From Chryseobacterium gleum (GTDB lineage Bacteria > Bacteroidota > Bacteroidia > UBA10329), in NCBI GenBank assembly GCA_945903645.1, contig CAMDOM010000036.1, positions 1 through 37,979 of the forward strand: a stretch of DNA of 37,979 nt, in the 5' to 3' direction. Both the position numbers and the translations under genes were made by a program. Below the pieces are notes generated by a model. The model ran no database searches. It worked only from the letters and a program-made list of their open reading frames with translations, and was not told where the DNA came from. The first letter of the stretch is position 1. The number at the start of each line of letters is the position of its first letter. Shown piece after piece: positions 31,900 to 37,592 of the stretch.

Positions 31900-33081
31900 C
31901 TACCTAATCAATGAGTAGGTCTGACTGGCTGGAAACAGCAACTCCAAGGACTTTGACTTGATTTTGAAATTGCACCCTTTATCTATAATAGTTCCATTGG
32001 GCATCCTTTTCATTGGATAATCCAGCGTTATTGCCCCTATATCAATCAGCAGCCCGAATTGTCCGACCAGCGGGTTCTTCGTATGGATTGCTTTCTTGTA
32101 ATGAAAGAATTCCTTATTATCCGTGGTTTTGCTTTCCGCATCTATCCAGAAGGTCTCTTTATGTTTGGATAGAAGAGACTGCTTCAATGTCTCCAATTGC
32201 CAGACCAGAAAGTCGCCTATGTCAGGCTTATCTGAGTTTTCAATCAAGTAATCCAGATCATAATCAGTTCTTAGAATCTGCCCCTGTTGATTTCTACCCG
32301 TAGCTCGTATGGTGTTGTAAAGTCTAAAAACGCCTTTTTCTTCACGCCCGAAAGCATCAAGAATCTGCGCTCTGGTTTTAAACTTGCTCAACTCCCAGTC
32401 TGGCGTCTTGGCGAACAACCCTTTTCGCGTCCCCTTATTTTCTCGTGCTGACTTCAATTCAATGCCCTTATAGTCAGGTGTTCTTGAAGAATTCATCGGA
32501 ATACCCAATAGATGTTCCAACGTTCTGCCAATAGATGTGTCCGCTTGTAATAGTGCAGGTACAAATCCACGAGAGGCGATTTCCATCAGTTTCATAAGCA
32601 GTTCATCAGCAATCGTATTTGCCTTGTGACCCATCTCCATTACAAGCTCTTTCAAAGGGCCTGATGGCATGGCATCAATAGAATCGTAGCTATTGAGCTG
32701 CGTGATGTTCAAAACGTAAAGTCGTCTCTCAAATGCAATGATTCCCAAAATGTCATTCGCATTGGCGAATCTGCCTAAGCCTGAAAACCAGATTCGTGGA
32801 TCTCCTTTCTTGGTGTTTGGTCGATATAAAGATGCAGTGGAAGGAATCTTTTGTGTGTGCGAAATCAAATAAGACTCTACTTGAACCTTATGCTCTTGCC
32901 CTTGTTCTTGTTCCTCAAAATCGTGAATGTTGCTGGCTCTTAGATATGCCCTTACTGAACCAGTAGCATCCATAATAGATTTTCCGAGTCCCGTCTCAGT
33001 GGGTTCTATAAACGACAACTCAACCGATTTCTCAGCTAAGAGTTTTACCTGATTAAGTTCAAGGTCTGTTAGCGCCCTCAT
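31900..33081 (-). CDS. MvaI/BcnI-like restriction endonuclease
   Basis: A 393-residue PD-(D/E)xK nuclease. TPDYKGIELKSAR holds Asp203-x4-Glu208-x-Lys210, the same D-x4-E-x-K spacing as the MvaI/BcnI active site. GIPMNSSRTPDYKG, LFAKTPDWELSKFKTRAQIL and FRLYNTIRATGRNQQG follow the pattern of that family. The C-terminal region (~200-393) is therefore the nuclease. The first ~200 residues form a long extension that MvaI (about 246 residues in total) lacks, perhaps a second DNA-binding domain. Family members cut CCWGG or CCSGG; the exact site here is not predictable. It begins three bases after the methyltransferase stop, so modification is translated first. Confidence 0.85.
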   Translation of the reverse strand: MRALTDLELNQVKLLAEKSVELSFIEPTETGLGKSIMDATGSVRAYLRASNIHDFEEQEQGQEHKVQVESYLISHTQKIPSTASLYRPNTKKGDPRIWFSGLGRFANANDILGIIAFERRLYVLNITQLNSYDSIDAMPSGPLKELVMEMGHKANTIADELLMKLMEIASRGFVPALLQADTSIGRTLEHLLGIPMNSSRTPDYKGIELKSARENKGTRKGLFAKTPDWELSKFKTRAQILDAFGREEKGVFRLYNTIRATGRNQQGQILRTDYDLDYLIENSDKPDIGDFLVWQLETLKQSLLSKHKETFWIDAESKTTDNKEFFHYKKAIHTKNPLVGQFGLLIDIGAITLDYPMKRMPNGTIIDKGCNFKIKSKSLELLFPASQTYSLIR

Positions 33082-33084
33082 GAA

Positions 33085-35295
33085 TTATTTTATCTTCCTC
33101 AAAATCTCCATCGCCACCGCCCTGGCCATCAATGGCGGCACTGCATTGCCAACCAAGGTGTATTGCGGGACTTCAAACTTACGGCCATTTCCTCCTGTGG
33201 AGCGTTTCCCCTGAAACACAAACGAATCATCAAACGATTGCAATCGTGCCATTTCTCTAACTGTAAGCGAGCGTGGTACGCGGTAATGGATGTAGTCGTC
33301 TGGAATAGTCATCACCGTTGGGCTTTGCTTCTCGGGATTGAGAACAGTATAGCTTCGCTTTTCTGATGATAAGCCCTCATCAATAAGTGCGGATTGCGCT
33401 AGCTTGTAGTCTCCCTCTTTTCTAATGATTTCCAACCGTTTCACAACATTTTCGCTCTGATTACTCGTCTGATGGTTCTGCAATGGCTCATGAATAAAAT
33501 GACCCTTTTTCAAATCATCAGCACTACGCACATAAATGGGCTTTCGCACTTCATAATCAGGTAACAATCGTCCTTGCCGACTCCATTGTGCGTAGCTTTT
33601 TTGTTTCTCACCGTTTGGCATTCCGTCAATTGCGCGCTCCTTTATAAGTGCTGCCATCCGTTCGGTAGAGCCATTATACCGTGCCTTTAAATTAATATCG
33701 AGATAATGCGAGGCTGACTCATTGTTTCCCAGAAAGTCCAAATCATAAAGCGCCTCAAATACCGAAACTTTTTCATGCTTAGCTACCGTAGCAGGTATAG
33801 CGCTAATCATCTTCTGGTCTTTCCTGCATCCAATAAATAGAACACGTTCTCTGTTCTGCGGCACACCATAGTCAGAAGAGTTCACCACCATAGGGGCATC
33901 TATTCGGTAGAGCTTAATTTCATCAAGCAAAGTATCAAGTTGCAACGCTTGCTCTAATGAGCACCACGAGCGAAGATTGACAATGCAATCATCAAATGAA
34001 TACGCATAAATGCGAAGCCCCTCTTTAACGCCTTCCACTTCTTGCTTATACTCTTTTGACACGGCTAACGCATCAAATGCAGTTTCAATTCGGTGAATAA
34101 TTGAGTCGGGTTCAAGTGCTTTGATAAAAGCATCAAAATCATGCACAAAGGCATCATTATCAAGGTAATTGAAATCTTTCTCTTTGATGGCTTCCTGCCT
34201 TAGACGAATAAGATTCGACCTCCTTTGCAGCATGTGCAACCCATGACGTATGGTGCTGATGCGGCCATCTGTCTTACTCATTTTATAATCTGCAATTTTC
34301 GGGGTCAGTTGTTTAAAGAACCCGTCAATAGCGCTGATGTATTCCTCTTGTGCCAGTTCTAGCTCACTGTCCTTTAGTCCTTCCTGCTTCAAGCGTCTCG
34401 CCATGCAGTCCAAAATAAATCTCTTGCGGTCATCACCAAGCTTTAAGTCGCGGGTAAACTTCACCAGCTTGGGGAGCCCTTCTAGGTCAATAATAGACTG
34501 CATCTCCTTGAGAATCTCCTGTGCAATTTTCCCTTGTTCCTTTGTAAGAATACCCTTCACATTTTCCATCACAAAATACTTCGGACGGAGCGCACGAATC
34601 ACTTCCAAATAATGCGAAAACAGGTCATCTTTCTTATCATACTTTCTACGCTTTCCTGCAAGGCTAAAACTCTGACAGGGTGGCCCTCCACAAACCACAT
34701 CAATCTTCCGTTTTCCAACCGCATTTAATAGATTGTCTAGAAAATCAGGTTCGGTAATGTCTTGTTTAATGAACTTCATATCCAAGCCCAATTGATGATT
34801 GTAACGCACCAAATGAGTCAACTCGCAATTTTCATTGATGTCGCTTGCAGCAATAAAATCAAACACCTTATTGTTGTATTCAGCTTGTAGCAGCCCTTCG
34901 CTAAATCCGCCTGCACCTGCAAACAAGTCGATAAAAGTCACAGGATTCCGATACATAGTGAGCTGTTCTTTCACCAAATGCACATTGCTGTAGGTGCTGT
35001 AAGAATTGACAATATCCGTCAATTTGGATTTTACTTCATCCACCGTCAACTTTCGCTTTTGCGGCTGGCAAAAGAGAGCCTCTGCCGATGTTTGGAGTTG
35101 TGTGAGATAGTGATTGATGACATCAGCCCTTTCACCAGTCGCTTTTACACGCTGCTTTTTCTTGTCAAAATCCTCTGATGCCACCTTTTGTTTCGTGGCC
35201 ACCTTCACTTGCTCACCATCACAATTGATTCGCAGGTGGATAGGTGATAAACCCTTCTTATCGGCCTTATCTAGGTAAAAATTATAAGTTGCCAT
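33085..35295 (-). CDS. C5-cytosine DNA methyltransferase with N-terminal integrase-arm-like domain
   Basis: A 736-residue modification enzyme protecting DNA from the adjacent nuclease. The motifs are: I, FIDLFAGAGGFSEG (121-134); IV, GGPPCQSF with catalytic Cys207; VI, ENVKG (244-248); VIII, QNRERVLFIG (480-489); IX, RSLTVREMARLQSF; X, YTLVGNAVPPLMA. About 220 residues separate motifs VI and VIII, where small enzymes such as HhaI have about 40, so there is a long helical insertion (~250-465). Residues ~1-75 (MATYNFYLDK, KGLSPIHLRI, then SEDFDKKKQRV and NHYLTQL) resemble the arm-type DNA-binding domain at the start of Bacteroidota tyrosine integrases, but no recombinase catalytic domain is present. 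The AT-rich leader with ACGGAC repeats suggests self-regulation. Confidence 0.9.
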   Translation of the reverse strand: MATYNFYLDKADKKGLSPIHLRINCDGEQVKVATKQKVASEDFDKKKQRVKATGERADVINHYLTQLQTSAEALFCQPQKRKLTVDEVKSKLTDIVNSYSTYSNVHLVKEQLTMYRNPVTFIDLFAGAGGFSEGLLQAEYNNKVFDFIAASDINENCELTHLVRYNHQLGLDMKFIKQDITEPDFLDNLLNAVGKRKIDVVCGGPPCQSFSLAGKRRKYDKKDDLFSHYLEVIRALRPKYFVMENVKGILTKEQGKIAQEILKEMQSIIDLEGLPKLVKFTRDLKLGDDRKRFILDCMARRLKQEGLKDSELELAQEEYISAIDGFFKQLTPKIADYKMSKTDGRISTIRHGLHMLQRRSNLIRLRQEAIKEKDFNYLDNDAFVHDFDAFIKALEPDSIIHRIETAFDALAVSKEYKQEVEGVKEGLRIYAYSFDDCIVNLRSWCSLEQALQLDTLLDEIKLYRIDAPMVVNSSDYGVPQNRERVLFIGCRKDQKMISAIPATVAKHEKVSVFEALYDLDFLGNNESASHYLDINLKARYNGSTERMAALIKERAIDGMPNGEKQKSYAQWSRQGRLLPDYEVRKPIYVRSADDLKKGHFIHEPLQNHQTSNQSENVVKRLEIIRKEGDYKLAQSALIDEGLSSEKRSYTVLNPEKQSPTVMTIPDDYIHYRVPRSLTVREMARLQSFDDSFVFQGKRSTGGNGRKFEVPQYTLVGNAVPPLMARAVAMEILRKIK

Positions 35296-35300
35296 TTTTT

Positions 35301-35336
35301 ACGGACGTTTTTACGGACACGGACAAATCTACGGAC
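35301..35336 (-). promoter_or_regulatory. ACGGAC direct repeats around the -7 box of the methyltransferase gene
   Basis: ACGGAC occurs at 35301, 35313, 35319 and 35331, spaced 12, 6 and 12 bases (GTCCGT on the transcribed strand). The minus-strand -7 box TAGATTTG occupies 35324-35331 and shares its end bases with the third and fourth repeats. The first repeat is five bases from the ATG. A protein bound to these repeats would cover the promoter and start, as in an autorepressed operator. A fifth ACGGAC lies at 35469-35474. Confidence 0.65.
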
Positions 35337-35539
35337 AGTTGTCAATTATCCTAATCGTTCCGCAAACCAACCACCCCAAACCATAACCTATTTACGGTCT
35401 TAAAATTATTTTCAACTTTTTTTTTCGAATCGCACAATATTCTGTTTTGTTCTCCGTTACTACATCAAACGGACATAAAAAGGGAAAGGACATGATGGAG
35501 TAGTACTTGATTTTTAATTAACCAAAAACCATAGAAATC

Positions 35540-37177: not shown

Positions 37178-37309
37178 TTTCACGCAAAGGCGCTAAGCCG
37201 CAAAAAATGAATGCGCATATAAAAGATACTACCGATAAGATGGTTGACGAGTCGTAGCATCCGGCAGCCACTTCTGTTCTACTAGTGCTTTGCGTCTCCG
37301 CGCCTCTGC
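37178..37309. repeat. Inverted CACGCAxAGGCGC elements
   Basis: CACGCAAAGGCGCTAAGC-CGCAAA (about 37181-37204) and the reverse complement of TTTGCGTCTCCG-CGCCTCTGCGTG (about 37289-37312) agree at 20 of 24 positions. They face each other across about 85 bases. Similar CGCAAAG-type intergenic elements are scattered in many bacterial genomes. The element occurs again in inverted orientation at about 37417-37440, inside the second copy of the direct repeat. No coding role is seen. Confidence 0.55.
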
Positions 37310-37526
37310 GTGCAACAATTCGAATGCGAGAATCAAAACTTAAAATCAGTTTTAATCCATTCAATCAGTAAAATCAGTGTGCTATCCTTCAAAAGCTTAC
37401 GCCCGTTTGCTAGTGCTTTGCGTCTCCGCGCCTCTGTATGCAACAATTCGAATGCGAGAATCAAAAATTAAAATCAGTTTCAATCCATTCAATCAGTAAA
37501 ATCAGTGTGCTATCCTTCAAAAGCTT
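37282..37526. repeat. 117-bp direct duplication in a non-coding region
   Basis: Copy 1 is 37282-37398 and copy 2 is 37410-37526, with the same offset of 128 bases at both ends and about five substitutions. Each starts CTAGTGCTTTGCGTCTCCG and ends CCTTCAAAAGCTT, and contains the short repeated words AAAATCAGT. An 11-base spacer separates them. This and the inverted elements fill most of the 573-bp gap 37020-37592, where no gene was found. Confidence 0.9.
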
Positions 37527-37592
37527 CCGTCCATGCGCCAGCATGCGCAGCGTTCAAGCGTTAAGGCCATACAATACCGTTAGTACATCACC

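Follow-up and report, generated by a model that had tools for sequence, protein, structure and literature searches.

The window, that is the whole stretch of 37,979 nucleotides that was analysed, harbors a restriction-modification (R-M) locus on its minus strand. A C5-cytosine methyltransferase gene is followed on the same strand, 3 bp behind it, by the gene for a restriction endonuclease of the MvaI/BcnI type, a partner which hints at a recognition site related to CCNGG. The methyltransferase passes the curated cut-offs of both PF00145 (194.2 bits) and TIGR00675 (165 bits, cut-off 100.65). In a first-pass annotation, four repeats upstream of this gene and an arm-like domain at the N-terminus of its product had been taken together to predict autoregulation. 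The features of the locus are:

31900-33081, minus strand: restriction endonuclease gene, 393 aa (P0002), MvaI/BcnI type (PF15515 MvaI_BcnI, E=2.6e-69)
33085-35295, minus strand: C5-cytosine methyltransferase gene, 736 aa (P0001; PF00145, E=4.9e-57)
35083-35271, minus strand: Arm-DNA-bind_5 domain (PF17293), residues 9-71 of the methyltransferase, the proposed repeat reader
35301-35306, minus strand: putative operator site 4, GTCCGT
35313-35318, minus strand: putative operator site 3, GTCCGT, abutting site 2
35318-35319, minus strand: predicted transcription start at the junction of sites 2 and 3, placed from a -7 box at -12 to -5
35319-35324, minus strand: putative operator site 2, GTCCGT, its first G being the last base of the -7 box
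35324-35331, minus strand: predicted Bacteroidetes -7 box TAGATTTG, matching the consensus TAnnTTTG and sharing its end bases with sites 1 and 2
35331-35336, minus strand: putative operator site 1, GTCCGT, promoter-distal, its last T being the first base of the -7 box
35351-35354, minus strand: weak -33-like element TTAG, 19-20 bp upstream of the -7 box

Read directly from the minus strand, four direct repeats of GTCCGT lie between 35301 and 35336, their starts being separated by 12, 6 and 12 bp. All four are exact, and their plus-strand copies (ACGGAC) occupy 35301-35306, 35313-35318, 35319-35324 and 35331-35336, as the first-pass annotation had claimed for four ACGGAC repeats in 12-6-12 spacing. 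Ahead of the ATG the strand reads GTCCGT-AGATTT-GTCCGT-GTCCGT-AAAAAC-GTCCGT, followed by AAAAA. The end of site 4 is thus 5 bp away from the methyltransferase ATG (35295, minus strand), in agreement with the earlier statement that the repeats halt five bases short of the start codon; the start coordinate given there, 35296, is the base preceding the ATG. The described interlocking with the -7 box was also found, since TAGATTTG shares its first base with repeat 1 and its last base with repeat 2.

The array is not a chance occurrence, and its conservation in homologues is the decisive evidence for this. In none of 60 dinucleotide shuffles of the window did a non-trivial hexamer recur four times in a span of 36 bp, and the array is the sole occurrence of GTCCGT-N4-8-GTCCGT in the 3.2-Mb genome. 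Absence of the repeats from close homologues with the same N-terminal domain had been named beforehand as evidence against the autoregulation proposal. When the upstream regions were compared, the array was found in 62 of the 63 readable Bacteroidetes homologues carrying this domain. For this comparison the protein scan gave 62 Bacteroidetes loci, to which the window, L066 and L067 (whole-genome loci) and L136 were added; the 62 array-bearing regions are distinct upstream regions, and loci with a cut-off gene start were left out of the count. Mean pairwise identity was 87% for the 36-bp array versus 37% for the 36-bp upstream flank. The single homologue without the array is L049, where the region lies at a contig end; it holds an inverted GTTGAC...GTCAAC motif that may represent an inserted element (L049:1-130).

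Conservation is not even along the array. Sites 1 and 2 are each an exact GTCCGT in 58 of 60 aligned upstream regions, and their columns carry 1.7-2.0 bits, whereas the 34 positions preceding the array carry 0.1-0.9 bits. A large group of homologues has GTACGT at site 3, GTCCGC is frequent at site 4, and five homologues retain sites 1 and 2 only, site 3 being missing or strongly degraded. Since sites 1 and 2 are near-invariant and can stand by themselves while sites 3 and 4 vary, the pair over the -7 box forms the core, and the downstream pair the more tolerant part.

The Flavobacterium -7 consensus TAnnTTTG sits at -12 to -5 (PMC9723704). With the start accordingly predicted at about 35319, the array would reach from about -17 to about +19, with a leader of about 24 nt. 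TAnnTTTG is exact at the position of the -7 box in 54 of 60 homologues, and the -33-like element, although weak in the window itself, has T in 45 and G in 43 of 62 homologous regions in its aligned columns. In most homologues, between about 0 and 15 bp separate site 4 from the ATG. Because the register to TAnnTTTG is constant while this distance varies, the array is locked to the promoter and not to the start codon. Control at the RNA level was ruled out, as sites 1 and 2 lie upstream of the predicted start and as the spacing to the ATG changes while the register of array and -7 box stays.

The array is kept across Flavobacteriaceae, Cytophagales, Chitinophagales and Bacteroidales. The endonuclease gene usually adjoins the methyltransferase gene in these loci, but the array is equally kept where two genes lie between them or where, at eight loci, an unrelated convergent gene stands in for the endonuclease gene, and no other gene was conserved beside the methyltransferase when the neighbours of homologous loci were compared. 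Among 395 genomes of the phylum, the three-site pattern had two matches, both at the methyltransferase gene. In 12 carrier genomes the form of the array with AT spacers occurs at the methyltransferase gene only; five other two-site matches were found in them, all with unrelated spacers. The pattern GTCCGTAnnTTTGTCCG was present in none of the 26 next-nearest methyltransferase loci (L069-L094), which are arm-less, and in none of the arm-domain integrase loci examined, so that the array is carried by neither group. That the array follows the methyltransferase while hosts, neighbours and restriction partner change argues that its reader is encoded by the gene itself.

A separately encoded regulator, either a host factor or an unlinked C-like protein, might instead bind the repeats and control the methyltransferase, as many regulators use direct repeats. 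We regard this as unlikely: no such gene is conserved near the homologous loci, and the site is near-identical across host orders and families while its AT-spacer form is absent elsewhere in the carrier genomes. A host regulator would be unexpected, since it would also have to serve other genes. The earlier remark that no separate C-protein gene is visible nearby was borne out both in the window, where none lies beside the two R-M genes, and near the homologues, where none is conserved.

Mobile elements were also searched. The 33 array matches in IMG/VR were rejected, because the frames downstream of them had no match to the methyltransferase or the arm domain; they were mostly simple GTCCGT tandems or GC-rich coding stretches. 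No homologue was found in viral contigs. Among the matches listed for plasmid and phage collections, the best start at about residue 95 or later and hence lack the arm domain, and identity to the methyltransferase is at most 60%.

The arm-like domain noticed in the first-pass annotation was recovered as Pfam Arm-DNA-bind_5 (PF17293) with 32.8 bits, above the gathering cut-off of 22.6. It is predicted to fold as beta-beta-beta-alpha (mean pLDDT of the model 82.8). A Foldseek search of this model gave no significant PDB match; comparison with the arm-type integrase domains 3ju0 and 3jtz gave Z of 4.1 and 3.9, within background, and an AP2 domain scored about 4, likewise not distinguishable from background. 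No HTH was found at the N-terminus of the methyltransferase by Pfam profile search, and no recombinase domain was found in the protein. D9, H20, Q29, K31 and K37 are shared by 57-60 of 60 methyltransferase arms. The first four (57-59 of 60) are rare or absent in integrase arms (0-7%), and H20, Q29 and K31 fall on strands 2-3 of the predicted model. These three are proposed as reading residues, provisionally so because the L025 protein deviates (H20D, Q29R, K10S) yet its gene retains sites 1-3.

The N-terminal domain of the methyltransferase is of the same family as that of the Arm-DNA-bind_5 tyrosine recombinases of Bacteroidetes (PF17293), in which the catalytic part is a recombinase and the GTCCGT array is absent. 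Integrases from the same phylum as the methyltransferase homologues served as an independent test. Direct repeats with at least 9 of 10 bases matching at a lag of 11 or 12 bp were sought in the 200 bp upstream, and were detected for 19 of 40 arm-domain integrase genes versus 5 of 263 control genes. After removal of integrases more than 60% identical, 15 of 32 still had such repeats (Fisher p about 1e-12). None were seen at lags 7-9 and 13-17, and few at other lags from 7 to 45. This enrichment demonstrates that the arm domain family goes with direct repeats spaced by 11-12 bp, as expected of arm-type sites. The upstream repeats of the integrases are probably arm-type attachment or autoregulatory sites. 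Their sequences differ between integrases (GTGACCTA, GGTTACCA, TGTTGTACC and others) and often have an ACC core, e.g. GTGACC, GTTACC or TTGTACC; three TGTTGTTACCTA-like copies lie upstream at L177. What they share with the methyltransferase array, which has 12 bp within each pair, is the layout; the sequence of the array is its own. Loci with such repeats include L137, L140, L142, L143, L150, L157-L160, L163, L166, L169, L177, L188 and L190.

Taken together, these results make it likely that the array is an operator which the methyltransferase binds through its arm domain to repress its own promoter. Freshly synthesized methyltransferase would attach to the GTCCGT repeats by the integrase-type arm domain at its N-terminus. 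Sites 1 and 2, spaced by 12 bp, would be filled as one pair on the -7 box, and sites 3 and 4 as another immediately downstream of the transcription start. The bound protein would cover roughly -17 to +19 and exclude RNA polymerase from the methyltransferase promoter, so that free methyltransferase would limit its own synthesis. In the window the endonuclease is probably under the same control, as its gene lies directly behind in the same orientation; at loci with a convergent partner, the methyltransferase alone would be controlled by the array. We infer that the protein binds, that it does so in pairs or cooperatively, that the outcome is repression and not activation, and that the endonuclease is affected too. 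Occupancy by four arm domains at once is a steric assumption, since sites 2 and 3 follow each other directly, their starts 6 bp apart. With less assurance, we lean towards a broader picture, in which a recruited integrase arm domain brought along its habit of reading 11-12-bp-spaced repeats and made the enzyme a self-contained autorepressor. Its operator would consist of two pairs, of which 1-2 would be essential and 3-4 would serve for tuning, and it would travel between Bacteroidetes with exchangeable restriction modules.

The same binding could also activate the promoter, or activate and repress it depending on concentration through pair 1-2 versus pair 3-4. C proteins in other R-M systems give graded responses of this kind, and a two-pair architecture could provide them. 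The most conserved pair, however, lies over the -7 box and the predicted start, where a bound protein normally excludes RNA polymerase, and five homologues have pair 1-2 alone; we regard activation as about as unlikely as a separate regulator. Control by the catalytic domain or by promoter methylation, with the repeats serving something else, has a precedent in other R-M systems, in which a methylation site in the promoter gives methylation-state control. We consider it improbable here, as the conserved element is the array and not a palindrome, and as CCNGG, which may not be the true site of the enzyme, occurs in none of the 100-bp upstream regions of 60 homologues. Least probable of all is that the array has no regulatory role and is left over from, or a target for, recombination. 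The domain and the 12-bp direct-repeat layout are integrase-like, but a relic would be expected to decay, whereas the array keeps a fixed place with respect to the -7 box, and the protein has no recombinase domain.

Autorepression through an N-terminal extension has been described for the C5-methyltransferase M.SsoII. The 55 residues at its N-terminus bind AGGACAAATTGTCCT, a palindrome of 15 bp in the intergenic region between the methyltransferase and endonuclease genes; M.SsoII thereby represses its own gene and stimulates the endonuclease gene (PMC6100179). The methyltransferase described here resembles M.SsoII and Ecl18kI in being a C5-methyltransferase with a short N-terminal DNA-binding extension, and in having at the promoter of its own gene a site that is specific to this gene; in the present case, binding and self-repression are predictions. 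It differs in having an integrase-type arm domain where M.SsoII has an N-terminal HTH domain like that of C proteins, in direct repeats instead of a palindromic operator, and in a tandem of methyltransferase and endonuclease genes (or other restriction modules) where the M.SsoII site is intergenic. The M.SsoII site is essentially limited to SsoII-like R-M systems (PMC6100179). The present system would work like M.SsoII-type autorepression yet appears to stand outside the SsoII-like group, as it has neither the HTH domain nor the palindromic operator and its genes are in tandem. The "new form of autoregulation" put forward in the first-pass annotation thus holds for the domain and the operator, but not for the principle, which is known from M.SsoII (PMC6100179). 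With R-M systems controlled by C proteins the locus shares an operator for expression control at the R-M promoter, whereas the array is not a C-box palindrome and the loci carry no C gene. A search of the literature, whose coverage was incomplete, found no description of a methyltransferase with an arm DNA-binding domain.

If the proposed reading is true, the enzyme would be an R-M autorepressor whose DNA reader is an integrase-type arm domain and not a helix-turn-helix. It would explain how Bacteroidetes systems without C protein could control methyltransferase dose, and would give a compact, portable operator of known sequence. The reading further predicts that paired direct repeats of 11-12 bp are recognized by the arm-type domains of a very large family of integrases, and it offers specificity residues that can be tested.

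Several observations concern the gene neighbourhoods. At L009 (7207-8151, minus strand), L015, L025, L038, L042, L045, L053 and L062, a convergent gene of about 315 aa replaces the MvaI-type endonuclease; the L009 copy had no significant Pfam match, and the gene is a candidate for an undescribed endonuclease family. At L004 (7210-9432), L006, L021, L039, L048, L050 and L055, two conserved genes (about 385 and 357 aa) come after the methyltransferase, and in five of these seven loci they precede a same-strand MvaI-type endonuclease. L029, L036 and L060 have an insert directly after the methyltransferase, with a gene of about 200 aa and a DUF262-like gene of about 510 aa, a label that comes from reading the sequence and not from a profile search; the insert has stretches similar to the endonuclease. 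Finally, at 37280-37530 of the window a segment of about 120 bp (ctagtgctttgcgtctccgcgcctctg...) occurs twice in direct orientation between genes.
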